From Caprimulgus europaeus (taxonomy: Eukaryota > Chordata > Aves > Caprimulgiformes > Caprimulgidae): a DNA stretch of 64,000 bases. The notes beneath the pieces are model-generated. The model searched no databases, was not told the DNA's origin, and saw only the letters and a program-made list of their open reading frames with translations. Below are positions 2,331-64,000 of this stretch, piece after piece; positions within the stretch are counted from its first letter, which is position 1, and every line of letters starts with the position of its first letter. A program made the position numbers and the translations under genes. The stretch spans positions 43,936,839-44,000,838 of the forward strand of contig OU015532.1 of NCBI GenBank assembly GCA_907165065.1, written 5' to 3'.

Positions 2331-4268
2331 CTTTCATTCTCCCTTCAGAATGGCTATTTTTTTCTTAATTTATTATTTATGAGACCTCCTGTTGGCAGGC
2401 TAACAAACCTTTTTAAAGAAATCTTGTCCAAGAACAGCTTAAGCCTCAAATTTTATTTCACAAAATAATGTGATATCAACAGAAAATTAGAGAAATATCT
2501 TTTCATGTTCTTCCTTTATTTGCAAACTGTAAGTCTGATATTGCACACCAAGCATGGGTGCAGGTAGTAACTGGCAAATTCAGTGGAGAATTAAAGCTTG
2601 CTTCCTGCTTCTGTTTCCTTGAAAATGGCTTGATTAATAGTATGTGTTGCCTAGGACTGTGGCTGAGACACAGCAGAGTCTGAACCTCAGAGCATGCCAA
2701 GCACCACTTGCATGAGCTACTGTAGGTTACAGTAAAAAGCCAGAGATCCCCAGCTGGTCGGGAGAGGAGGGCAGTGGTGAATTCTATCTACTCATATCTT
2801 CTGCTGCTTGGTATGGGGTGGGGCAGAGAGGGAATAGTGTTTGTTATCAAAAGTTGCAACAAGATAAATTATCTGCCTTTCATCCTGAGAGGAAAGATGA
2901 TAACTGAGTGGAATGAAGTGGGATAAGCAGAAGCACCCTCTCTTGTTTTTTGGTGGTGTTTCCAGAGCCATCTATAAAGGGGCTAATTTTTATTCTTGGC
3001 CTTTGGTTGGAGGTAACGGTCGGTCATTGTGCGTTAACAGTTGCAGTGAGCAACTGAAACGTCTTGAAGCTTCCCACAGACTGCTGTTCCATGAAGCATT
3101 TTTATATTTGTAACTTTCTGTTCCTAGTTCTTTGTTTGTATCTACATCTTATATTCTATTCCTGATTTTTTTTCTGAGTGGGAGGTGAGAAGTTTGATGG
3201 CTTGCAGTCAGTCAGTTTCCTGTTGACAGTGTTATTAACTCATTTTTTTTTTCTTTGTTTCTGATTAATAAAGTATTTGTATTTGTAATTAATTTCAATT
3301 TGCTTTGAACAAAGAAGCCTCAAATGATAACTCCATGTATGCAGATTTTCTCACAAAATTTCAGCAGTGGAACCATTATATACAGCACTATAATCAGCAA
3401 ACACTTTTTGTGTCTGACCTCAGTCCTTGTATTCAACATATTGGATGTAGCTTTCCTGCCTTGTGAAACTCCTTAGCACAAGATTACTCAGCTTTCTTAT
3501 TGCTCCCAGTAATGACTTTGGGCATAGGATTAAGTGTTAAAAGTGATCTTAACAGCCCCTTTGCTTAGTGTGTTTGCAGTATGATGGAACCCCTTAGAAT
3601 TTCAGCTTTACTGAGAATTCACTGGCACTTCAGTGACTGCTGCACAATGGAGTATCTTTTTTTTTTACAGGGAGATGAATGGCTTCATGTAAAATCTGAG
3701 TGGAGACCAGACAGTGTGTTTTGGCTCATGAGTTATTTACTTTCAGGTAAAAACACAAGTAGATTGTCTTCAGCCTGTTTCATTGTGGTAAAATTACCAG
3801 TGACTTGTTTTTGTTAGCATTTCTTGTACAGGTCTTGTAAAATTGTCAGGGTTGCTTGGAAATATTTAAAACTTTCCTACTACTCTGAGGCTGGGAACAC
3901 TTCCTAGCAGTGATGGATATGCTTGCTATGACCATGCATAGCTTCTCAGGTCCAGTTCCTCTGCAGAATTTCAAAACAGTTGGTGTTCATTCCAAATTAA
4001 ACAAAATTTTGAAATTTCAAAAACCTCCACAAAATGCAGTTACCTTTTTAGGCCCAGTTTGAGGAACATGACTCCTCATTATCCAGATGAAAAGAAAGCT
4101 CACATTTGTCCCAAGAATGAAAAGTTTTATATCAAGTGCTTGTGCAGTAAGAACTTGTGTAATTCATTTCAGCAATCTCTTTCACCTAAGAGTCTGCATT
4201 CCCTGATGCACTATTTTCTTTACCTTTAACTATCATCCTAAATTCTGAGTAAGGGTTGGTAACCATAC

Positions 4269-4456
4269 CTGGTGGTTAAGTCCAATGTGTGTGGTTGGGA
4301 TTGTAGAATCCAAGACATGCATTTGTTCAATCTCCATGTGCCTGTAGAGCTGCTGCAGCTGGGGAGGCTGTACGCTCTGCAGTTCTGTGAAGTGGTTGTC
4401 TCCAAAGGTCTCAAACTCACTGTGCATGTGGTGTGGGTGATATTCCCAGTAATGAT
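4269..4456 (-). CDS. SPI1: SPI1 coding exon 3
   Basis: The 188-bp exon lies between an acceptor ending CTGTAG (4462-4457) and the donor GTATGG (from 4268). The first two bases complete the aspartate codon begun by exon 2. It encodes residues 47-109, starting [20 protein letters not shown] and including [20 protein letters not shown]. This is the end of the acidic region and the glutamine-rich transactivation region. In mammals the acidic and Q-rich regions contact TBP, CBP and other partners. The HYW and HPHH motifs and the [15 protein letters not shown] stretch match human PU.1 almost residue for residue. The last third ([13 protein letters not shown]) is the most diverged part. The exon ends in phase 0 on a CAG codon. 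Confidence 0.97.
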
Positions 4457-7400
4457 CTACAGAAAATAAACATAGGTTGTCTGTCATTACAAGATTAAGA
4501 AACGTGGCATTTACCTGTGTTTCATTGGTTCTTACTCCTGTCCCTCTCCACACCATCCCTGTTGACTTCTCTGTCTCTGGTGACAATCTATATAGATCTC
4601 TGTAAAGTTTCTTCTCCTAATTTCATAAATCCCTTTTGCTGGAAAGTAATACTTAGGCTGCTTAAATTAGGAGAATACTCTCAGGCAGAGAGATGGATTT
4701 CAATGATAATTGAGCATAAGATGCAAAGGACATTAATGCTGGCATCTTTCTCAAGAAGAGACCATAACAATCTTACATTTTCATTCTTGATGCAACATAT
4801 TCTACTTATTTACATATTGTCATATTCTCATGGCATTCTCCCTCATGGCATGGAAATGAAGAGATGGAGAAAATTTACAGATAGTTCTGCAATTATCTTT
4901 AATCCTTGTTTTACTCTGCTAGCAAAATGTCAGGAATGCTGCAGAAAAGGCACAGCACTTTGCTAAATATTTCCTGCAATCATGTGCTGGTATGGCACAC
5001 ATTTTTCAGTACCAATACTAGACAATAAAGGGATAAACTGTTGCAGCAGTCTGGTGTGCACTGTTTGCAGTGAGGCTAAATTCTGATCCAGATTCTTCCT
5101 CTACCTTTTTAATCTCTTTAATATGTTTGAAATATCTGTGATAATTTAGATGTTTTTCAAATACATTAAAAAGTACTCACATAGCCACATAACCAAATCA
5201 TTTCCTGATTTGTTTGCTTTTGAAATGAAATGAAAATTATGAAATGAATTTCCATATCACTCTCAGGTTATTTTGTTGGGGGTTTTTTTAGTTCAATATA
5301 AGCCTCCAAATTTTTTAGATTTTCATATTTGCTGTTCTAAATTTAAAATCTACTAGAGGAAATGTGAAGCATTGCAATTTCTTTTTCTCTCTTACGTGCA
5401 GTGGCTTCATCCATAATTATGCACATATTTGTGAGTACTCTGTGTTTTAAAATCAAAGTCAACATCACGTCCTTTTCTCTGACTGAGCTAGGAACTAATC
5501 TTTCATTGTTTAACTTTTCATGCCTCATTTTATGCATGACTGAAATTTCTTTATGATATTCAGTATAAGAGTTCCAATTTATATCTTAATATCCCATGTT
5601 TTCTTCCCTTGTATTATTATAAATAATTTCTGTCCTACCCTTTACACATTTCCAGGTTGCTATCATGTACCCTCACAATCTAGTCCTAATTGTCACTTAA
5701 TCCATCTGCATGTATTTAGCTCTATTTTTTCCTTATAAATCAGTATATTCACCCCCAATCATACTTGTGCACTTCTCCAAGCTCCCTCCCAGCTGTTGAC
5801 ATCCTTAGGATAATGCCATGGACAGAAATGAACGTGTTGTTCCAAGTGGAGTTGTACTGAATTTATAGAGGAGCAATTGTCTCGTTCTGTAATATGTTAT
5901 TGGGTATGACATTATCTGGATACTAATGTGCTGGGAATATTTTGTCTTAAATACCAGTGTCATTCTTTCTCCCAGCTTCTATTTGCTCCTCCTTCCCCAC
6001 TTATGTTTCAAGCCATTGGGTCTAATCTCACCGAGGATTTGAAAACCAGGATAGTGACTTAGAATGTGGCTTCCTTTAGAGGGAACTCAGTGATATGTTT
6101 ATACCAGACATAGTTGTACCTGAGAAATTGTAAGCTCTTTTAGCTGCCTTTACAGCTCAAACCTCTGGAAATTTATTTGGAAAGTCTACCAGACAGTTTA
6201 CCACAGCAGTGCTTACTTGTTTGTCCTTCCTGCTTTTCTGATTCATGGATAAACCATGTCACTGCATGTGAAAGGGATGGGAAGGTGCTTATAAAAGCAC
6301 CCAAGGAGCTCCTGCTTTGGAAGTTCTTTGCTTTGTTGTATAGTGCTTTTTCTGAGCTATGTATGGATAGTAGAGCCCAAAGTTATCATTACAATGCACA
6401 GCAGCACTTCTTCACATTGTAGTGCTAGAGAAAAATGTTGCTTTCTCTCTTAAAAAGTGTTTTTTATGGGTGCAAAGTACCCAGGTTCTTTTACATTCAC
6501 ATCTGCTCCAACCCAGGAAATGGCAGAATGTGTGTGAGTTTAAATCCACAAGTGTCTAACGCTGTGCCCTGCTAAGAGGCTTTAGGCATTTTCAATCTGA
6601 AACTTGTTTGTTTAGCTTGGAAGACTGAGCTGTACTAACTCAAGCTTTTTCTGGGTTAAATTACTGCAGATTTCTCTAAGTAGAGTGAACCATTGAGGCT
6701 CTGTATAGCCCTGTATAATAAATTGTTGAGAATACATTGCAGAATTAATGTATACTCTTGTTCCTGAGAATGATCTAGCTCTCCTCCATGTGCAGAAAGT
6801 CCTCTGTCAGATGGCAATGTACGTTCTCAAAGACCCCTTGTCTTTGATAATCTACTGCAGCAAATGAGATCAATGCATGATTTTGGGGATGACAAAGCCC
6901 AGGAAAAAGTCTCTGAGGCTGATAATGGCAGGTCTGAGGCTGCTGTAGAATGTCTGACTGGTAGTAACTGTGGTGGTCAAGAGAGAACACAGTCCGTTTC
7001 TGACACGCGTAGCCGTGAGTATGTGTGTATGCTCTGAGTGGACTCCTTTTGAGTCTTCTTTAATATGTTTTTTATCAGCAATCATGTTTTTGTACTTCAG
7101 GATACCTCTTAGTTTTTTGGAGCCTATGACAAGGTTCTTGCTGCCTCCAGAACTGTTTACAGAACTCTCTTGAACTCTTTCTTGGCAAATAAATTAACCT
7201 ATGGAACACTATCTATGCATATTGATGTTAATCACTATGTAATATTTAGCCTAGTCATTACTGAATTCCTTTTTTTATGGAATTAGGTGCTGCTGTAAAA
7301 ATACTATAATAGATTAGTACTAACAGCACAGCATTTAGAGACTTACAGTGACCACATAATACTAATACATTACAAAATAAATCTATGTCAGAAGTTACTT

Positions 7401-17216: not shown

Positions 17217-18537
17217 AAATGGAGATTCTGGTTTCTGGGGTAGTTGAGGACAAGGTTTGGGTTTCTTTTAAATTCTTTTTTTTTAAGCCAATCAAGTAAC
17301 CTATAGAGAGGTCTCTGTGTACTTCTTTCATTTTCTCAGTTTCTTTTCAGACTTCTATCCTGCTGTATTTACAGTAGATCCACTAGGACTTGGTGTATTA
17401 AAGAAAAAGAAAAACTATTTTCAGGGTCTTCTTGCCCTTTGGGTAGATAGGGGATTTCAGGGGCACTGAAGATGAACTGCTAGAATAAAGGGTCTCCTGA
17501 AAAGAAGACGTATTTTTTCAGTCAATGTGGATACTAAGCATGAAAGGAATTTAAAGGGCCATCTTTCTGCGTGGAAGATAAGCAAACATGTCTTTAGCCT
17601 TCGTTAGATGGGACAAGACAAAAAGAAAACCTGATACAAGTTTTGTTGAAAGGACTCTTGGATCTGCATTGTCTCTTTCTCTGCTCTGAACACACGTAAC
17701 AATTACCATAAGTCATCTACCACATAAAAAGCCAAGTAAAACACCTTATCTGACATCTCTTCATCTTCCACAAACCTAATAAAATCTAGTTAGGGCCTCT
17801 CTTACCCATTCTGCTTAGAGATTTCCCATTAAGGTTTCTTTCTGAACAACAGGTTAGTGACATTACGTTCTTCATAAATAATAATTTCTGAACTCATCAT
17901 ACGGTAAATTACAGCAGTGTCACAATGCTTCAGAGTTACAGACAGGACAGAAACAGTCTCATAAGCATAAAGATTTGTATCTAAGAGAATATATTGAAAG
18001 ACCCAATTAAGAGCTATGAGTTTTTTCCCCTCATTCACCAATTGCTTTTTCATCGCAAGTGAATTCAAAAGAATTAAGTTCAAGAGAAGCTGAAGCTAGA
18101 AACTAAAATACCATCAGTGCAAAGAGCACAGAGTCCTAAAATCGGTATTCAGCAACATTTCTCTCACAGACTGGTAGATAGCTAAACACATAAACTATTT
18201 CAGAGACTTGAGATTATTAAGAATTACAACCTGAAGAAAGACTTGGCCTTATATCACAAAGGCGGCACTGACTTGCTATGTGCATACTCTACAAAAACAC
18301 CATCCATTTAATCTGTGAAGACAAATGGAGATCAAAATCAGATACAAGTTTAGGGAGGAAATGTTAATTTCCCATTCATTACAATGTTGTCACTGGCTTT
18401 ATATATTGACCTAAGCCCAACTTCCTGGCATTACAAATACAGACCAAAACAGAGATATTCTCAAATAATACAACCTGGTTTACTTTGCCTTTTGCTACTG
18501 AGCCCAATGTTCCATATTATAAACCCCATATACTTAC

Positions 18538-18582
18538 AGGGGGAATGAGGGGAAATCCTTCCATTTTGCAAGCTTGCAACAT
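18538..18582 (-). CDS. SPI1: SPI1 coding exon 1 (start codon exon)
   Basis: On the minus strand an ATG at 18582-18580 opens MLQACKMEGFPLIPP, 15 codons, up to the donor GTAAGT at 18537. Human PU.1 begins MLQACKMEGFPLVPP, so this start is the conserved one. A second in-frame ATG (residue 7, 18564-18562) is also conserved. I chose the upstream ATG because all of the six intervening residues match the mammalian protein. The exon continues upstream as 5'UTR of unknown length. Its reading joins exon 2 in phase 0 to give the conserved PPPSED. Confidence 0.95.
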
Positions 18583-18644: not shown

Positions 18645-18700
18645 GAAAAAAAATCACATGAAAAAAAAAAGGAAAAAAAAAAAGGAAAAAAAAAAAAAGG
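18645..18700. repeat. A-rich (A)nGG tract upstream of the SPI1 start codon
   Basis: Three runs of 10-13 A separated by GG lie 60-120 bp upstream of the SPI1 ATG. On the transcribed sense strand this is (T)nCC, a long pyrimidine tract in the probable 5'UTR or core promoter. Confidence 0.95.
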
Positions 18701-18970
18701 TGAGATCCTCGGACTCTGTGAAGTCCCTTTTGCAGTGACGGATCTCAGGACAGGAGAAGGACCCTAACAAGTTTTCATAGTTTGCCCTAATAGGTTCTGA
18801 GGTGAACTTCTTCCCGAGTTGTATGTGAAGTTCCTGATTTTATCAAATGTCTGTAGAAGGGAGATAGCCCTTGGGTCTATCAGTGCGCTGTGACATCACA
18901 GCTTTTAGCCAGTTTGCATAAATCTCATTTCAGGGAGCTGTGGCGCTGTAACAGGAAGTCTGCCCTGGGC
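18700..18970 (-). promoter_or_regulatory. SPI1: Candidate SPI1 promoter region
   Basis: Lying 120-390 bp upstream of the SPI1 ATG, the block contains an ETS-type site ACAGGAAGTC (18951-18960), an octamer-like TTTGCATA (18913-18920) and a CRE-like TGACATCA (18891-18898). Mammalian SPI1 promoters are known to use an octamer and an autoregulatory ETS (PU) site close to the start of transcription. There is no TATA box at a convincing position. Spacing to the start of transcription cannot be measured without RNA data. Confidence 0.55.
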
Positions 18971-32900: not shown

Positions 32901-34439
32901 AAAATGATGTACAAATATTTGGGAGTGTTTTAGACAATGCAGCATGCAGTTCAAATAGATGGTTAAAAGCAGAGGTGTTAGCATACAGGTAATGGAATAG
33001 AAAAGCATTCTCTAGTGTGTGTGTGAAATGCCTCGAGCACAGTGGAAACACTTGACAGTCACTTGGGATGAACATACAATCACTTGGAGGCATGAGACTT
33101 AGAGTAGGATCAGGGAGTAATGGAGTTGTTTGGTTTAAATAGTAGTCTCTGTTCCTCTCTGGGCTGGCTCCAAATGTCAGGAGGGACCACACATATCTCC
33201 CCAGGAGGGTCCCACCAGTCCTTCCTTTTGTCACTGCTCCTTTCAGCCTTAAGAGAGGTTTTCTAGGCTCTTAATTTCTCATTGTCTCCTTTTCACTCTG
33301 CGTTGGTCTTGTTTCCAAAATGTAGACAACAGCAATGAGTTAAGGCTTTAATCATGAAGCTTGTCTGGAGCAGGCTGGGGAGCTTGGCTCTGAACTGAAA
33401 CAGGTTAAAAAAAAATCATGTTAGCTCACCAAAACCATCTAGTGCTGTGAGGGATAACTTAAAGCACAGAGGAAAGCCTAATTATTTAATTCAGTGAGCT
33501 TAGTGCGTGGTGAAATGCACACTGCTTTGTCTATGCAAGGTTTCTCAAGCATATTTACTAGCATATGTTAGCTAACAGGTGTTAGCCTCAAATTTCTAGA
33601 CAACCTAGGGGCTGACGAGAGTCTGGAGCTCAAAGTACAGTATGAGTTTAACTGCCTTTTTTTTTTTTTTTAATTATTTTTTGTTCTTCAAATATTCATT
33701 TCAGTTTTGAGAGTGTCCTGCTCAGGGAAGCACCTTCTGCAATCCTGGGTATATTGTCGTTATTTGTAAATAAGTATGGAGAATGTCTCATATTGATACT
33801 AAAGTCTGAATAATACTGACCAGATAAAGTTGTAGCAGGATAGATTTATTCTGCATCTTTCATCCTATATCAGAGGAATTTTTTTTTGTCATTTTCTTTT
33901 CCCTTCCTGTCCTGTCTTGAACCAAAAAGTTCTCTTCTTTTACCAACAAACTGAATTTAGTGTATCCTTGAACCTTCCAATGGTGTGAAGGTTTATTGGT
34001 CACAAGTCTGTAGAAAGGTAGTTCTGTGTTTCAGTAACCTTCCTGTCCATCTACTGTGTTTTTAGTAAAAGTCTCATGATACTTTGTGCTTTTCATATTA
34101 AAAAAATAAATACTTCTTGCTCTTATTGCAGAGAATGGGATGTATCTCAAAGAATCGAAATTAAGTGAACAGAAAAAATCTTTTCCAAAAGTTGTATGAT
34201 TTTTGAACTAATCTCATGATTTGCTGTGGTCTGGCTCTTGATTTTTGACTGTTTGGCATTCTGGGCATTCCCCATCCTCTTCTCAATGCATGAGCAGGTA
34301 GCCCAACACCACCAGAGTTGAGTTCCAACTCTGGAAAGATGTGGGATTTTTCTCTAAGGATAGGATGGTGATTCATTCTGAGCTCTCACAAGACAATCAT
34401 GCAGCTGCCCCTGTTTCAAAATCAGCAGCCCCGCCAGCT

Positions 34440-34610
34440 CGTCTCCATCAGCCTTGAGAAAACAGGAAGCACAACGGCCACCACAGGAAGTGGTGCGCTC
34501 TTACACCCACCCCAAAAACTTAGCTGCTGAACCTATTGCAAAATGTTAACAGAACACTGCAGGGTACACAGAGAAAAAGATGAGAAATCTGCTGACCTTT
34601 GGGTGCCTGT
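34440..34610. promoter_or_regulatory. Candidate SPI1 upstream regulatory element (URE)
   Basis: Within about 90 bp there are AACAGGAAGC (ETS, 34461-34470), CAACGG (MYB-like, 34472-34477), the composite ACCACAGGAAGTGGT (RUNX-ETS-RUNX, 34480-34494), ATTGCAAAAT (C/EBP-like, 34535-34544) and GTTAAC (34545-34550). TGACCTTTG follows near 34593. The mammalian SPI1 URE lies about 14 kb (mouse) to 17 kb (human) upstream and is known to be bound by PU.1 itself, RUNX1 and C/EBP. This block is about 15.6 kb upstream of the candidate promoter. Both position and site content therefore fit; activity is inferred, not shown. Confidence 0.6.
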
Positions 34611-34649
34611 GCAATTCCTGGCTTCAGTTTCTCAGCTCTGTAGCTTAAC

Positions 34650-37600
34650 TCGCTCACCAACACGCCCTGTGTTTCTCGGGCATTGCAGCTTAAACCCTCT
34701 ATCTTAGGATGCTCTTACCCAAAATGTGGAGACTTTTTCTTAATTATTTTGGTTTTTTTCCCCCAAAATTTGTACAGAAATGCAGTAAGAAACTTCTTGT
34801 CTGGAGGGCTGACAGACAGAAAGATAGAAACAGAGTAGATGGAGAGGACTGTGTTTTGTTTATCGTGATTAACCATGTACTCATTTCCTTGGCAACATGG
34901 AAGAAATGGGTGGTTTTAGGGTGGAGATTTATATTAATATCTTGTGATTTGGATGTTTTTTGTATTAAACAAGAAAAAAATATTTGTCTCTCTCATGGTT
35001 GCAGAGAGAGGACTGTATCATAACACTTCAGAGAATAGAAGTCCTTCTGCATGTAAAAGGAGGAGCACGATGAACTGCTCTAAGTAGGAAACTATTCCTT
35101 GGGGGTGCTGGGAGGCATGGAACAGAACTAGGAATGGCTGAAAGAGAAGAACAGGATGTTCCACAGCAAATAAAAAAGACGAGAGAGATACAACATGCAA
35201 AAAGATTTGAAATTTGAGAAGGTTTTTTTTTTTGTTATGTTTGAGTAATAAAATAATCTTGAAAATTTGTTATGGAAAATCAAAGGGGAAAAAATGCAAG
35301 TTTATATGCTGGATGATGGGCAAGTAAAATTTTGGTAGGGGCTTTTAAATTTAAAAAGCAGGATTTGTGAATTAGAGGAGCTGCTGCAAATAAGTGCAAT
35401 AATAAGAAGGCAGGAGAGGATCAGGAATGGAAGATGATGTTAGATATTGAGACTAGATCTAGGCATTATTCTTCTGCTAGATATTTCATTGGTCCAATAA
35501 ATGCAGATTTGAGAAACTAGTCCTGGAAACCAAACTATTTTTAAATTCTTGTTAAATTACCTGAATTGTTTTGTCAACAGTTGAAGCTTTTGAAAGCTGG
35601 AATTTTTTCTTGTTTCAAAATTTAAAAACATTTGAAATGAATTCATATGTAATTTTGCTTTGAAACAAATGTTTCATTCAACTCATAATTAAATCTTGGG
35701 GGATTTCCATTTTTGTAAGATTTTTTTTTAAATTATTTAGAGTGAAAACGAATTCCCTAGCTGTCCTTTTTAATTTTTTTTTTAATTTTCTTTTTTTTTA
35801 TTCAGCCAGTAAAACTGAGAAAAGCAGTCAGATTCCTGGAACATGGTGAATATTAAGAACTATATTGCAAGAGTGCTGAAAGTCCTACATGGAGTATAAA
35901 TGTAGATTTGAGGACAATGTCATCAGAACGTTACACAACTATGAAGTTGGCTTGGTTTTACTAAAGCAGCAAAGTTGTACATAGAATCTTTAAGTGATCT
36001 TGCCTGGATGTGGATTACAGACGAATATCTTATTCAGCAGGGTGGATAAATGCTGTCTCTTTCTCTCAGCACTAGCTCCTAAGAGTCTTCTTTCTCTGTC
36101 ACAGTTCAATTATCTTACTCCATAGTGGATGGAAATGCAGTTCTACCAAAAATAAACTGAATATTTTCCCTGCTGCTGTTACAATGGGGCATCTTCTCCC
36201 CAGATTTCTGTTCTCCAAATTACTTTAGAATGGAGTTTATAACACTTTCAGCACAGTTTACTTTTGAAAAGACTTAATCAGAGATTAAAACTTCATGATA
36301 CTTCCTTTTGAAGTAACTCGTTCTGTACAGATTGTTTCTGTTTTGCACAGTCATTCAGCAGGCAACTTCAGTTTGTCCTGTAACTCCCCTCGTTACGTTA
36401 ACTCTCTTCACAGCACACACTTCGGAATTTTTCTGAAGCTCATAACTGTGGTTTTTTTCCTGCCATGAAATACATTTTCATTTCAAGTGTGCACAGAGAT
36501 TAGCAACGTGACTCGTTCCAATATTAACACATCTATATTCTCTTCATTTTGATCTAACATCTCTCTCTTCCTGCTGGTTTTTCTGCCTGTTGGCTATTTT
36601 CAAAGTTCTAAAAATATTTTTAAAATGGTGAAGTTTACTGGACAGAATACTGCTGTGCTCTTCATGTCTTTTCTCCTGAAAACTACCATACAGTTATCCT
36701 TTTCTCTTGGTGGCAGAATAAACAAAACATATGGTTAATCCTGTTTGTTTCTAGTAAAATGTCCCAGTTCACATACTTGTCACAGATTTTCCATGGAGAG
36801 CTTAATGTTTTTGGGTTTTTTTTTGGTGGAAAAATCAACATATCCTTAAACTCCAAGATCTGTCTTACCACACACACACACAAATCACTAGCTAATTCTG
36901 TCTCTTTGGGAGTATTATACATGTACTTAAGACTGGACTTCTGGGACTCCATCTCCTGGCTGTGAAAATATGAAAAATAGCCTGTCCTGAGCAAAGCAGA
37001 GATCCTTATCATGCCTGTTTCTGTGAAAATCTGTCCTGGAAACCAAACATTCAGAAACAAACTATTCCACCAGTTCTTCCTCATTTGCGTTATTCAACTT
37101 TGACTACAACTCACAATTTGCTTCCAGATGTTTTCTCAGACTTGTCTCAACCTGTTTCTAGCCTCACATTTATTGAGACTGATTTTTTTTTCCCTTATGA
37201 CCTATCCAAAATGAGTATTATTAACTTCTGCAGATAAAAATTTAAGTTCTGAGAGGAAAAGTCACATGGTATCATTAATTTTCATTGCACTAAAACACAG
37301 AGCTAACGAAGACGATCAGGGAAACCAGGGGTTTTCAGTCCTCTTAAACTTTGTCTGCTTATTAGACTAGATCATGCTCTCTGAAATTTGTACCTTATTA
37401 GTGGTCTAATATGCAGTATGAAAATAATCTGATGTGTGAGGCAAGAAATAGAAGGAAAGGGGGTGCATTTTATGCAAATGAACTCAGAAAGTGTTCAGGA
37501 CTAGTGACTTTTAAGTGCTTAGGAAGTCGAGAGCCTCTTGTAGTTAGAAAGGCTTTTTCCGTGCCCCTCAGTGGAAAAAGCATTGATTGGCTGGGTTTGA

Positions 37601-40600
37601 GATAACTCTTTGCAAGTCAGGTTGGTACAAAACTGCCCTTAAAGACAGAAAAAGCACCAAACAGAGCAATTTCTGTACAAGTTATACAACTTGTATTAAC
37701 TGTATCCCGTGGGTGCAGAAAGGAAAATGGAAAGCAGTCTGTAAAATGTGGACATGATCTGAGTTTTGAAGAACAAAATCTGTCCTACAGGAGACTGGTA
37801 GCTATGTTTGATAGCATTTCCATCAATTACTTCTCACTATTTTTTTTAGGGTGTTTTTTTTCCAAATGCCAAGCTGCTGGTACCCCTCCTGCCCATCACT
37901 CTGCCTAGGCACTCTCTGAGCTGCCTCCTGTAGGTTTCCTTTCAGCTCTTGTTGTTACCAAGATTATAGAGGGCCTCAGGTAAGGACCATAAATGTGTAG
38001 CTTCATAAGCCTCACTGAGAGCAAGAGGAAGCATCATTTCTCTAGTAGCCATTCTATAACACATATTTCTTACTTTAAAATAATATTTTTATTTATTTTT
38101 TTTAAATTTGAAAATTGAAAATTCCACACACTTCACTCTGTCAGTTCATTTATTCTCTTGAATTCAGTGCAAGGTAATCACTCTGGTTGTTCTGTATCTA
38201 TACTGTATTTTTAGCAGTCAGCAGCTTCTTTTAACTCCTCATAACCTAATTTTGCTAAGCTAGAACTCTTTAGAACACATTTTGTGAAATATGGTTCAGG
38301 TTTATTTGTTTATTTGTTTTTTTTTAATATTAATTGACAAAACTGACAGACCAAAAAAGAAATGGAGCAATAGAGAAAGAGAAAAATCAAAGGAAGGCTG
38401 AAAGCTCAAAACAGCTTCATCACTTTGAGACTAAGACATATTTTAGTCCATCAATTTCTCAATTCAACCTTAGGTCAAAACGTATTTTTTATTGCACTAA
38501 TTGAAGCATAATTTTGTTTAATTCAAACTCTGACTCTGTTTACAGTTCCTACAGTGTGAAAGGGAAACAGTTCATTCTCCTCTTACACACTTAAGACTTG
38601 ATTTTTATCGTTCCTGAGCTCTCTTGATTTCAACTGCAGTTGTTGGAACATTTAGAGTGCTAGATATTTTATCAATAAATAATCTAATCCTCTTCAGAGC
38701 TGCATATGATCCATAATGTATTTTACAGGATCAGTAGTACTTTTGAAGCTAAATCAGTGCAGAAAAATTCTTTCAGCTTTTCTTGATGTGATTAGAGATT
38801 AAGGGGAAAAGCATCATTAGCTTTTTTTTTATTGCTTAAAGCAAATGCTTTAGCTTTGCTTTAATAAAATCAGTATCTAAAATACACAAATCACGTATTT
38901 TGAATGACAGAGGGTTTCTGCATGCCACTGCTATTCTGATTCCACCAGATTTTCTTAGAGGGAGTAATTTCCTTCTGTCAGGATTATGTGACAGAGCTAG
39001 AGCTATGTTCAGGACAGAGCTGTCCTCAGAGAAAGAGCAGATTTTTGTTTCCTTTCATTGTGAATTTTTTAGCAGTTTTAGCCTTATTTAATATTATGCT
39101 TGTCCCAGGTTTCAATTATGCAGATGCTCACAGTACCTTTCCCCTTGGAGCAGACAGCTCTTGTCTGACTCAGATGACAGAATGGTTGGACAAGGTTGTC
39201 CAAGGACAACATTTGTTCTGCTCTGGACATTGCAGCTGCCACAGACCTGCTTGGTAAATCCACACTCGCTTATTCTGTAGTCCTCAGGAATGCCAGAACT
39301 TGCCTTACTACCCAAAACTTCAGAAGATCAAGTAGAAGATTTTCCTTAAGATGGGTTAAGGACTACTTTGAGGAGATCAAATCAGCTCAGCTCTTCTCTG
39401 AGCTGTTTTTTCAGTGCTTCCTGTCTTATTTTTAATTATTGTTTTCCATTAAAGAGTTAAAGATTGATTTTGGATGCAGCATCTTCCAGAACCATTAGTT
39501 TCAGTCCCTAGCCTTCAAAACCATCCGTCCCAGTCTCTATGATTATGTGCAGTGAAGCTGGGCTTCATTTAGGATTTGCATTTCCTAGGACGAAAAATAA
39601 CTAAAGGCTTTCATGAAGAGGGGGGAGATAAAGCAAGCAGGACCTTCCTACTCTGCATTTTTTCCAGTTGGGGCTAAGCTTGACTGTAGCTCTCCCCCAC
39701 CCATGCAGACATTGAGCTTTGCTCCTGTAGGTCACAAACAGCATGATTTTGCATTTCTGCCTGCCTGCAGGTTTGGGTGAAGTAAAGCAGTGGGGCTTTG
39801 CAGAGTGGGGCAGCTGGCTGAAATGCTTCTTGCTCTCTTGATTCTTTCTTTCTCTTTCAAAGTGAGTTGCACTAGTCCTTGTGGGAAGGAAGGAGAAGAT
39901 GGTGGTTTTGCACAAACATTCTCAGAGACTGTTCTTTTCTTTGGCAACCTTGGAATTTCCCCAAAGGCTTTTGTTTCTTGCAGCTCCTCTGATATATTTT
40001 TTTCTTTCCTAAGCCCCAACCAAACTTGGTCGCTCTCTTTCTGTAACATAATAGAAAACTTTGATCCATCCAGACCCTTTGGAATGCCAAGGCTGTAATA
40101 AAATAAAATAAAAATAATAAAAAAAAAAGATGTGGAGGTATGGCTGCTGCTTGCCTCTGGTAGATGGATTTTATCAGAAAAAGTAGTGCTGATTTGTATC
40201 ACTCAGCCACACCAAGGTTATACAAAGAGCAGCAAAGCCCCAGGAGCATAACAGTCGGTCTGCTCTTAACCTCAACCTTTATCTCTCACAGCCAGCTTCC
40301 TTCCCACACCACAGGCACCACGTGTTGTTTTACACTGAAGCAACACTCAGCAACTGAGGTCTGTCTGCCCAAAGAATGGAAAGGGAAAAGGAGGATGACA
40401 TGAACACAAGATGAGTGGGCAGCATGAGGACTAACAATTATGAAGCAATGTTCTTACAAACCAGTGCCAATCTACTACACCTGCCACAGTGTGTGAGCTT
40501 TGGAGTCCTCAGAATGGGCTTTTGGTCAGCCATTTCTTTTTGTCTCAAGCTGTTATCTTCAACTCTAGGTGATGAGAAGGGAGTTTGACTGATAACTGCT

Positions 40601-45531: not shown

Positions 45532-45881
45532 CTCAGCTATCTTTTCTCTATCACTATTGTATCTGATTCTGTCCATACCCAACTACACTAAGATCAGTTT
45601 TCTAGACCTCATCTTTGGGATGCTATGCCTGCATCCCATTTTTCTCTTCCTAAGACTTACTTTGAGTTGGTTCCTCCTTAACCTTTCTTGCCCCATGTTC
45701 CTTCTAATCATTCCTCTTGATGTCTCTGCTAAATTTACTTCTGTCTGCAACTTTTCAGCACCCATCATAACACCAGGAAACCATTGCTGTGTACTGGATT
45801 GCTCATCTTGGACGTTGCGTGTGAGTTGTTCTGTCTAACCAAAACTTCAAGTTTTTCAGATGACTGGTAGCAGTGAATGTT
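45532..45881 (+). repeat. Inverted repeat arm A (350 bp)
   Basis: This block matches the reverse complement of 48763-49112 with about 16 substitutions and no indels. It contains an open frame of about 93 codons that is also open in arm B, but most of the differences change amino acids, so the frame does not look selected. I do not recognise the family. It could be one interspersed repeat inserted twice in opposite orientation, or an inverted duplication. Confidence 0.93.
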
Positions 45882-48762: not shown

Positions 48763-49112
48763 AACATTCACTGCTGCCAGTCATCTGAAAAACTTGAAGG
48801 TTTGGTTAGACAGAACAGCTCACATGCAACATCCAAGATGAGCAATCCAGTACATAGCAATGGTTTCCTGGTGTTCTGATTGGTGCTGAAAAGTTGCAGA
48901 CAGAAGTAAATTTAGCAGAGACACCAATAGGAATGATTAGAAGGAACGTGGGGCAAGAAAGGTTATGGAGGAACCAACTCAAAGTAAGTCTCAGGAAGAG
49001 AAAAAGGGGATGCAGGCATAGCATCCCAAAGATGAGGTCTAGAAAACTGATCTTAGTGTAGTTGGGTATGGACGGAATCAGATACATTAGTGATAGAGAA
49101 AAGATAGCTGAG
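48763..49112 (-). repeat. Inverted repeat arm B (350 bp)
   Basis: Reverse-complement partner of 45532-45881 with the same length. The outer end is next to a small tandem duplication (GATAGCTGAGACAGAGAGAA followed by GATAGCTGA) at about 49103-49131. See arm A for the coding-potential argument. Confidence 0.93.
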
Positions 49113-59015: not shown

Positions 59016-59315
59016 GTAAGACAGGGAGTCCTCAGACAAATGCAAGCCCTGGGTGGAGCTTGTACAAAGTGTATTGTTTGTTTTGCACCCTGCTTGGTCC
59101 GGGACCCTCTCACACACTGCTGTCCCAGCCAAGTGGTGCAAGGGCTTTTTCTTGCACTCCAGCTCTTTGTTCTGTGCTCTCTCCTTTGAAAGCTTGCTTT
59201 GCAGATGCTTCCAGTTTAGGTCTCTGTGCAAAATCTCAGCTGGAGATGTTTTGGCTTCCAGCTGAGTTGTGATCAGTTTTTATGATCTAAATATTTATTT
59301 ATTTATTTATTTTAG
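59016..59315 (+). other. SLC39A13: SLC39A13 intron after coding exon 1
   Basis: A 300-bp intron. An open frame runs from the upstream exon through most of it, but the GTAAGA donor and the conserved AG acceptor at 59314-59315 show it is spliced. Its 3' end is an ATTT microsatellite that doubles as the pyrimidine tract. Confidence 0.9.
59291..59313 (+). repeat. (ATTT)n microsatellite at the splice acceptor
   Basis: About five and a half ATTT units run directly into TTTTAG, so the repeat supplies the polypyrimidine tract for the next exon. Confidence 0.92.
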
Positions 59316-59429
59316 CTGGATCACACCGTTTGAAGCAATTGTTGAGTTTTGCAATTGGTGGACTACTGGGTAATGTGTTTCTGCACCTGCTTCCTGAAGC
59401 CTGGGCCTACACATGCAGTGCAACAACAG
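59316..59429 (+). CDS. SLC39A13: SLC39A13 coding exon 2
   Basis: The 114-bp exon has acceptor TTTTAG and donor GTATGA at 59430. It encodes residues 90-127, including RLKQLLSFAIGGLLGNVFLH and LLPEAWAYTCSATT. This is the second transmembrane helix, with the HLLPEAW motif typical of the LIV-1 branch of ZIP transporters. Human ZIP13 reads RLKQLLSFALGGLLGNVFLH here, nearly identical. Phase 1 on both sides keeps the frame. Confidence 0.96.
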
Positions 59430-61045
59430 GTATGAAAGCCTTCCGTGCCTAGAAGCAGTCCGTGCTACCGTGCTGTGCCTACTGCTGCTGCCTTTCTGTG
59501 TTGAAACCACCACTCAGGCTGGATCAGCCCAAAAACTGATCTAGGCTGGTATTCCCTTTCAAACAATGTGTAAAAGCAAATGCCTGGGGAAGGATACAAG
59601 ACCAATAAAGACACATCTTTGTGCTCTGCAGTCCTCCAGAGTTTTTGAGATTGGAGGCTTCTTGAGTTAGACATGGTTTCTTTATGTTTAATAACTTGCA
59701 ACTGAGTTCTTGTCTATCACCTTTTCCTGTCTTGCATTGGACTCCTGTAAACCTCTGTTGAATTTCCTTCGTCCTTTCTGTAAGGAAAGGGAATAGTTCT
59801 TTAACCTGTGTGTACTATCTCAGGTGGGGATTCTGCCCCATCAGATGCATTTTGTCTATAAATCTGTCCCTTTAACAGTGCTACTCCTAGAGCCTCTTTC
59901 TTGGGACTAACTGGGACCCCTCTGCTGGTTACTTCAATCTGTGGAGCCCAAATGTGTATTGCTCTCTCAACCTTTGCTCCAGAAGTCACGGGAAATGGTC
60001 CATAGAGCCGTGACTAAGGTGTAGGAGGGCAGGGCAGGGGGAGAAAAAGGAAATGCAGGTGACACAAACAGGTGTTGGCCAGTGAACTAAACACTGTTTG
60101 GGCTGGGTAGTGCCTGCGCTATCGGTGTATCTCCTTCACCCCTCAGATAGCCAGGGTTGTTGAAACCTGCAGCCATTGTATCTCTCTGCTTCAGCAAACT
60201 GATAGCTTAGAAGGCTGTGTCCCACCTGTTGAGAAACCAAGAAATCATTTCCCTGCTGAAAATGTGAGAGAGGGAAAAGGATGCCATGGGTTTCCCAGAC
60301 TTCTTTGTACCTATGTCCTGGAATTTCAGATCTGCTGGGCCTTTGGTCCTCTTCTTCCTCATGGCTCTGGCACTGCCAGCAGAACCTGTTGTCCTTTTGC
60401 AGTAGTTCCCAAATGACTCTTCCTGCTCTAGCTTGTTTGCTTCTGCCAGACTGTCCTGAAACATAAAGGTTTCCTTGACCCATGTAAGCCCCATTACAGA
60501 GCCGTTCTGTTCTTCCACTGAATGCAATCTCCACTTCTGCAGCAGGCTGAAGGGATCATTATCTCACAAGCTTGGCTGTAATTGAAAAGAAAGTTTGTAG
60601 CTTTGGGCTTAATAACTTGCTCAGGTGTGGCAGAAAGGAGAAGGTGAGTCTATAGCTCCACTAATGGCAGATTTCATGTCAGGGCTTGCTGCTCAGTAGA
60701 TAGCTGCAGGATTTTTATTGATGTAATCTTCACTTGCCTCTGGAGCTCAGGGAAATTCCCAGTGTTGTCAGGAAATCTTCTGGATTGCACTGTTGAAGCA
60801 AAAGGGGTTGGGGCTCTCACTCTGAGTGTCCCGAGATGGGGATATCTGCTAGATCAAGAATGAGCAAGTTAAACTAATTTGCTGTGAGATATGTTTGCTC
60901 CTTATTCCTCCCAGGAGGTGTTTCCATTGTCATTTCCTGGTTTTTGTCTTGGAACTGTTGGTTAAACTGCCTGGGGCGGGGTGGGTTCACATGTGGGAAG
61001 CACTGTGTGCTTGGTAGTGACATGAAGATTTCTCTTGTCCCTCAG
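59430..61045 (+). other. SLC39A13: SLC39A13 intron after coding exon 2
   Basis: 1616 bp from donor GTATGA to acceptor CTCAG. No repeat family or conserved frame is recognised. The minus-strand open frames at 60136-60534 show no similarity to known proteins. Confidence 0.85.
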
Positions 61046-61167: not shown

Positions 61168-63113
61168 GTAAGTTAGCAGCCAGAGGGGAGGGAGTCCTGT
61201 TGCGTTTGGAGCGCTGTACTAAACACCTCATCTGCCCTATCTGACCGGCTCAGCACATATCCTGGAGCTGTGAATAGCTTGTCAGTGCCCTTTGGGAGCT
61301 GTGTGCTGCTTCTTTGCCACTGGGCTCTAGAAGAAGGTGTTTGATCTCCAGGCTTTGGTTTTGTGGTTTTTAGCTGAGGTTTCTCACTTCTGAGCTGGTT
61401 TTGTTCTTGATGTGGTCTGTGTGAAAGAGAGCTCCCCTTTTATGGGGACTGAGAGCTGGAGCGCTCTGCAGATGAGACTCTTGCTCGAGTAAGCTTTGAG
61501 GGATGACAGCTTGCTGATGTATGTTCCACTGAGCCATCGTGACTCACTGCCCTTCTGGGTCCTCAGTCCAGACAAAGACCAGCCTTCTCTGGAAGGTGTT
61601 CCTCATTGCTCACTCTTTTTGGGTATGGCCTGGACCAACCGTTTGTTAGGGTAACTCTGTGTAGTAGAAGGGGTTTATGGTTGGCCAGGTAAAACTAAGT
61701 AATGGTTCAGAGGAGAATTGCCCAGCTGCAAAGGGGGTAATGTAGACAGAGGTATCAGAAGGTATGTTTGAGCCAGCAATGTGCGCTTGCAGCCCAGAAA
61801 GCAAATAACTGTGTCCTGGGCTGCACCCAGAGCAGCGTGGGCAGCAGGGACAGGGAGGGGATTCTGCCCCTCTGCTCTGCTCTTGTAAGGCCCCACCTGG
61901 AGTGCTGTGTCCAGTTCTGGAGCCCCCAACACAAGACAGACATGGACCAGTTAGAATGAGTCCAGAGGAGGCCACGAGGATGATCCAAGGGCTGGAGCAG
62001 CTCTGCTGTGAGGACAGGCTGAGAGAGTTGGGGCTGTTCAGCCTGGAGAAGAGAAGGCTCCAGGGAGACCTTATAGTGGCCTTCCAGTACCTGAAGGGGC
62101 TACAGGAAAGCTGGGGAGGGACTTTTTACAAAGGCAGGTAGTGGTAGAACAAGGGGTGATATCTTGAAACTGGAAGAGGGAAGGTTTAGATTAGACATTT
62201 AGGAAGAAATTCTTTGCTGTGAGGGTGGTGAGACCCTGGCCCAGGTTGCCCAGAGAAGCTGTGGCTGCTCCTCCCTGGAAGTGTTCTCGGCCAGGTTGGA
62301 TGAGGCTTTGAGCAACCTGGTCTAGTGGAAGGTGTCCCTGCTGATGGCAGGGGGGTTGGGACTGGATGAGCTTTAAGGTCCCTTCCAGCCCAAATCATTC
62401 TATGCTTCTATAAGGTAATTCCAAGATAGCAAAGAACAGCTAGTCCCCAGACATCTGCACAACTCCCAGCAGCAACTCCTATAGACTGTTCAGTCCTTGC
62501 TGTGCCACGACTTTTGAGAGGTGAAACTGCAGGTCAGGCACTGCTTAAGAGCAATTAGATGTTACTTTAACTCAGCGTGAGACTTTAAAGTCTAAAATGA
62601 ACTTAATCTTCTCATTTACAGAGAGACTCAAGTCTGAGATGAACATTTGGTTGGTTGGAAGCTGATGACCCCAGCTATAGAATAATTCTCTAGACTTGGT
62701 TATTCTGATGCACTGGGGAGAGCAAGACTTTTTCCACCCCCCCTCCCCATCCGCTGCCCAGATGGGGTTGTGTTTCATTAGGGAGCAGCTGTCAGCAGGA
62801 GTGGCCGGCTCCCTCCCTCCTATTTCCAGTGGAACCTGGCTCATGCCAAGGGGATGTGACTCCAATTCCTCCTCTGTCTTTCTACTTTCACTTCTCTGGG
62901 TGATTGGGGAAGTCTTTGTTCTTGTTGTCTCACAATGCCCTCTGAAATCTGTCTCATTTCTGGCAGTTTTCACTAGTAAACTGAGGTACCAAAGCTGCTG
63001 ATTTGCATTGTAAGGACAAAAGGATTAAGGGTGAAGATTTGATTTCTGACCCTGATTCGTGCTCATTCATCATTGACAAAAAGGCAGTGACAAGTTGTTT
63101 TCTCCTAATTTAG
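61168..63113 (+). other. SLC39A13: SLC39A13 intron after coding exon 3
   Basis: 1946 bp from donor GTAAGT to acceptor CTAATTTAG. One third of it is a CR1 insertion (61769-62411). The remainder is unremarkable. Confidence 0.9.
61769..62411 (+). mobile_element. CR1 LINE fragment, plus orientation, ORF2 end and 3' tail
   Basis: About 640 bp, 5' truncated. The first part encodes the C-terminal ORF2 segment [20 protein letters not shown] and later [21 protein letters not shown] stop follows DMDQLE, where CR1 normally has arginine (TGA for CGA), and a one-base deletion shifts the frame shortly after, before the [20 protein letters not shown] block. The 3' tail, with GGTTGCCCAGAGAAGCTGTG and ending CATTCTATGCTTCTATAAGG, closely follows the avian consensus. 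It is the youngest-looking CR1 in the window. It cannot retrotranspose on its own. Confidence 0.95.

Positions 63114-63266: not shown

Positions 63267-64000
<734 letters not shown>

Follow-up and report, generated by a model that had tools for sequence, protein, structure and literature searches.

The window analysed here, a stretch of 64 kb, carries SPI1 (PU.1) on its minus strand. Coding pieces at 18582-18532, 11996-11907, 4457-4251 and 188-3 were placed by matching to an SPI1 protein query, and an open reading frame at 4233-4616 matched PU.1 chains in the PDB with an E-value of 1.2e-25. The coding start in exon 1 (MLQACKMEGFPLIPPVS; 18532-18582, minus strand) marks what we presume to be the target gene of the element described below, and the promoter was placed by an octamer, GATTTATGCAAAC, at 18912-18924 on the same strand. 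Between this octamer and the ATG lies a purine run (18661-18696) of 2.8 copies of an A10GGA unit, in which the repeated GGA amid an A-rich context resembles weak PU.1 boxes. On the right side of the intergenic gap there is a CpG-rich stretch at 51.5-53 kb, followed by a Zip-domain exon on the plus strand (59291-59449; E 1.4e-6, with 28.2 bits where 35.1 is the cut-off for the whole domain), and the two are consistent with SLC39A13. The gap that holds the candidate element is therefore bordered by SPI1 on the minus strand and by an exon fitting SLC39A13 on the plus strand, and the order of these two genes is the same in mammals.

In the gap itself, none of 10 chosen open reading frames (113-156 aa) matched a Pfam family above the cut-off, one of them having two weak matches far below it, and an Rfam search of the window gave zero matches. 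Repeats were found on both sides of the candidate. Inverted copies of 350 bp with 95% identity (45532-45881 and 48763-49112) are probably a young interspersed repeat, and a second inverted pair (2131-2310 and 62224-62404; 80% identity) has CR1-like ATTCTATG tails, which lie at 2122 and 62398, contain mismatches and fit a bird or other sauropsid. The avian assignment draws on these tails and on the divergence of the SPI1 protein, so that another sauropsid source would also be possible. A TCTT repeat of 31 perfect copies (63877-64000) reaches the end of the window.

The candidate element is centred on a group of short sites, for which the original prediction had proposed a RUNX-ETS-RUNX composite at 34480-34494 with a second ETS site and MYB-like and C/EBP-like sites within 90 bp. 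All of these were found on inspection, within the 84 bp from 34460 to 34543. On the plus strand a PU.1-type ETS site, AAACAGGAAG, occupies 34460-34469; it is one of three matches to AAASVGGAAG in 64 kb and could be autoregulatory. It is followed by a MYB-like CAACGG (34472-34477), which fits YAACKG, and by the composite, ACCACAGGAAGTGGT, the sole ACCRCAGGAWG in 64 kb, which starts 20 bp from an AAASVGGAAG site. A C/EBP-like site on the minus strand, TTTTGCAAT, fits TKNNGNAAK at 34535-34543. Judged by pattern, then, the PU.1-type and C/EBP sites looked for in an SPI1 upstream regulatory element (URE) are both present. The composite was exactly where it had been placed, but its RUNX halves are weaker than the name implies: the core is ACCACA (34480), with a degenerate AGTGGT (34489) as its second half, and the strict 7-mer RACCRCA does not occur at 34480. 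Such a 7-mer, GACCACA, was listed at 34225-34231 on the minus strand, about 250 bp SPI1-ward of the composite and outside the proposed extent, and is possibly a further RUNX site of the element.

Both ETS sites read AGGAAG (34464 and 34485), and their GGAA cores (34465 and 34486) lie on the same strand 21 bp, or two helical turns, apart. The composite is framed by a perfect inverted repeat (34479-34495), in which 6-bp arms, CACCAC and GTGGTG, flank AGGAA. GC content per 100 bp peaks at 0.59 at the candidate, a value reached by 1.0% of the intervals between 18.7 and 49 kb, and elsewhere in the window no copy of the candidate was found beyond short weak matches. The pattern CGGCNACCACAGGAAGTGNTGC was matched by zero viral contigs and by nothing in a phage collection; two bacterial MAG contigs that did match it were rejected as relatives, the matches being taken as chance. 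The distance from the core to the SPI1 promoter octamer is 15,563 bp and that to the ATG 15,905 bp, so that the predicted separation of about 15.6 kb from the promoter was borne out (15.56 kb from the octamer). The candidate lies upstream of SPI1, before SLC39A13 and within the range of about 14-17 kb expected of a URE.

The prediction had also held that such a combination of sites was unlikely to arise by chance. Site definitions were taken from a paper on the Cebpa +37 kb enhancer (PMC4418761), with RUNX shortened to the 6-mer core ACCRCA. In this loose form the argument fails: when the 32.8-kb gap was simulated 200 times with a first-order model, 126 of the simulated gaps contained an equal or better four-class cluster within 110 bp, and loose site counting was accordingly ruled out as proof. 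In the real gap the candidate ranked 1st at 90 bp and 4th at 170 bp when four classes were counted, and at 110 bp it shared 1st place with a cluster at 40.3 kb; with GATA and E-box added (six classes) it ranked 4th, 6th and 7th at 90, 110 and 170 bp, and the cluster at 40.3 kb outranked it at all three widths. The argument did hold for stricter patterns. When the gap was simulated 600 times with a second-order model, the composite in the form ACCRCAGGAWGT occurred 12 times and a PU.1-type site paired with a RUNX-ETS site within 60 bp 0 times; these patterns were modelled on published sites but were picked after the sequence had been seen, so that both figures flatter the result somewhat.

A further indication came from the mouse Cebpa +37 kb enhancer, 14 gel-shift probes of which were compared with the window, each with 200 shuffles. 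The ETSa probe matched 34475-34500 on the plus strand at 22 of 26 bases (13/13 in the core and 9/13 in the flanking bases); its second-best match in the window scored 16, and its shuffles reached 19 at most. It was the clearest outlier among the 14 probes and the sole one to exceed all its shuffles; the scores of ETSc, ETSe, GATAb and ETSd were reached by 2, 4, 6 and 14 of 200 shuffles, respectively, and their best matches lay at other places in the window. With its ACCACAGGAAGTG core and similar flanks, the candidate contains a RUNX-ETS element of the type seen at Cebpa +37 kb. In the gel shifts of that paper neither PU.1 nor Fli-1, ERG or Ets1 bound the ETSa probe specifically, which speaks against an easy reading of the match. 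The ETSb site, AAACGGGAAG, which does bind PU.1, differs from AAACAGGAAG by one consensus-permitted base; the introduction of the paper states that the four RUNX1 sites of the enhancer bind RUNX1 (PMC4418761).

Orthology to the mammalian URE was approached through published primers. PMC5381148 gives a bisulfite primer pair for the human -17 kb URE that yields a 326-bp amplicon. The window was converted C-to-T, and the pair was fitted to both strands, allowing placements of 260-400 bp. Its single best placement in 64 kb was 34341-34700 (19/24 + 18/24), around the core; we propose this stretch as a plus-strand counterpart of the human amplicon, 360 bp long as compared with 326 bp. When the primers were shuffled (n = 1000), the core was straddled 6 times and the score reached 168 times, with both occurring once, and the candidate bin came 1st among 5084 overlapping bins. 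Gapped scoring weakened this result: 14 of 2134 tiles reached the score of the forward primer at the candidate and 43 of 2134 that of the reverse primer, whose best local tile was on the wrong strand. The bisulfite pair for the SPI1 promoter, intended as a positive control, did not locate the promoter as a pair. Its forward primer alone pointed to tile 18901, just upstream of the octamer, where 8 of 2134 tiles scored at least as high, and one of the top tiles of its reverse primer, 19021, lay on the side where it could not give an amplicon.

The human URE ChIP primer pair printed in PMC3607232 gave a mixed picture. By whole-primer identity it scored 24/41 at the candidate (13/21 + 11/20) as compared with 28 at 49.4 kb, and when these primers were added to the bisulfite pair, 42 of 5084 bins overtook the candidate; with the two mouse primers described below added as well, the number was 6 of 5084. 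By exact 10-base words the pair did point to the candidate. The words GGTGCCTGTG and TTTTCCCCCA define a plus-strand placement at 34597-34770, the only convergent pair of 10-base words within 50-320 bp in 64 kb; forward words occurred at 34597 and at about 40304-40308 (minus strand, there as a 12-mer) and reverse words at five places. Among 5000 shuffled pairs, 7 gave a convergent word pair anywhere and 0 near the candidate, and when the real word hits were moved at random a convergent pair arose in 378 of 20000 trials. As the word length of 10 was set after the hits had been seen and TTTTCCCCCA, the reverse word, has a low-complexity sequence, we regard this pair as support rather than proof; it moved our estimate for the URE reading up by a small step and those for its rivals slightly down. 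In a control, the best placement of the exon 1 ChIP pair was SPI1 exon 1, mostly owing to one primer and with a one-point lead. A putative mouse 3'URE primer pair was also compared. One primer matched 15/19 at 34535, overlapping the C/EBP site, which was its best place in the gap, with an equal match at 60.4 kb, outside the gap; its partner gave no support at the candidate, and the match is treated as a lead and not as a test.

These results can be read in several ways. Common ETS, RUNX, MYB and C/EBP words could have fallen together by chance in a functionless cluster, as the simulations of loose clusters would allow and as the several weak or negative primer tests might suggest. This is unlikely, as it would leave to coincidence the strict pair, the match to the ETSa probe, the primer placements and the local GC peak. 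Quite unlikely, in our view, is a myeloid enhancer serving SPI1 (or SLC39A13) that uses the same factors but arose within this lineage, separately from the mammalian URE. In favour of this reading, the strict site pair and the Cebpa-like module point to function whether or not there is orthology, and the human ChIP pair finds better whole-primer matches at other places; the matching distance, the bisulfite placement and the ChIP word pair count against it.

The avian URE might also lie elsewhere in the gap, for example at 40.25-40.40 kb, with the sites at 34.48 kb secondary or unrelated. At 40.3 kb a 90-bp stretch contains sites of all six classes, and the 12-mer of the human ChIP forward primer found there includes the RUNX core. 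However, that 12-mer barely extends (14/21, a score reached at 8 or more places in the gap) and is without a partner word, the promoter octamer is 21.4 kb away, and the bisulfite pair scores 2.82 there against 4.88 at the candidate, so that we consider this location very unlikely.

We therefore favour, with moderate confidence, the reading that 34.34-34.77 kb corresponds, in a sauropsid that is probably a bird, to the mammalian SPI1/PU.1 URE and is a putative myeloid enhancer, on the grounds of its place, its sites, the strict pair, the likeness to ETSa, the primer placements and the GC peak. The original prediction of an avian URE is supported in part, by place, distance and site types and by the bisulfite pair and the 10-base ChIP words. 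Counting against it are the higher whole-primer ChIP identity elsewhere, the effect of gapped scoring on the bisulfite result, the failure of the promoter pair as a control, the frequency of equal loose clusters in simulations, the smaller number of good RUNX sites than in the human URE, and the lack of specific ETS-factor binding to the similar ETSa probe. If the counterpart reading is right, RUNX1 and an ETS factor would bind the composite at 34480-34494 and open the element in blood progenitors, PU.1 would bind AAACAGGAAG at 34460-34469 and C/EBP the site at 34535-34543; a loop of about 15.6 kb would then bring the element to the SPI1 promoter, and PU.1 might in this way sustain its own expression.

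A mechanism of this kind would agree with what is known of the mammalian URE. That element is occupied by RUNX1, PU.1 and C/EBP-alpha and is primed in haemogenic endothelium, becoming active once RUNX1 rises (PMC10663361); mice from which it has been deleted express about 80% less PU.1 and develop acute myeloid leukaemia (PMC4197694); and its two conserved regions lie on either side of a spacer of about 500 bp (PMC3758488). A literature search by title and the start of the abstract, with most subscription journals lying outside its range, turned up nothing on an SPI1 URE in birds.

Should the element be common to birds and mammals, the bird sequence would show which sites may be essential. That set would perhaps consist of the PU.1-type site, one RUNX-ETS composite and the C/EBP site, and all three mammalian RUNX sites might not be needed. 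Birds and mammals separated more than 300 million years ago, and a shared PU.1 autoregulatory enhancer would be older than that. The reading also yields a specific prediction for chicken macrophage lines.

The candidate can be compared with three known systems. The ETS:RUNX composite motif, which we take to be RCAGGATGTGGT as in the HOMER motif library, is represented here by ACAGGAAGTGGT, one base off, and RCAGGAWGTGGT is present once in the window; this composite is a motif and not a locus, and is silent on orthology. With the ETSa stretch of the mouse Cebpa +37 kb enhancer the candidate shares an identity of 22/26 over 26 bp around ACCACAGGAAGTG, although that enhancer belongs to a gene other than SPI1. 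It is conceivable, if very doubtful, that a sauropsid SPI1 element and the mouse CEBPA +37 kb enhancer share an extended 26-bp RUNX-ETS module, with flanks alike beyond the known motif, as an ancient fixed recognition unit that was retained or copied and through which RUNX1 would activate both of these master genes of myeloid cells. The third system is the SPI1 URE itself (mouse -14 kb, human -17 kb). Three RUNX1 sites are given for the human element (PMC5381148), whereas the candidate has one core and one degenerate site, and the printed human primers place at the candidate, although the ChIP pair is recognised there by its short words only. The candidate too has PU.1-type, ETS and C/EBP sites and, in fewer good copies, RUNX sites, and it likewise lies in the gap between SPI1 and SLC39A13, at about 15.6 kb.
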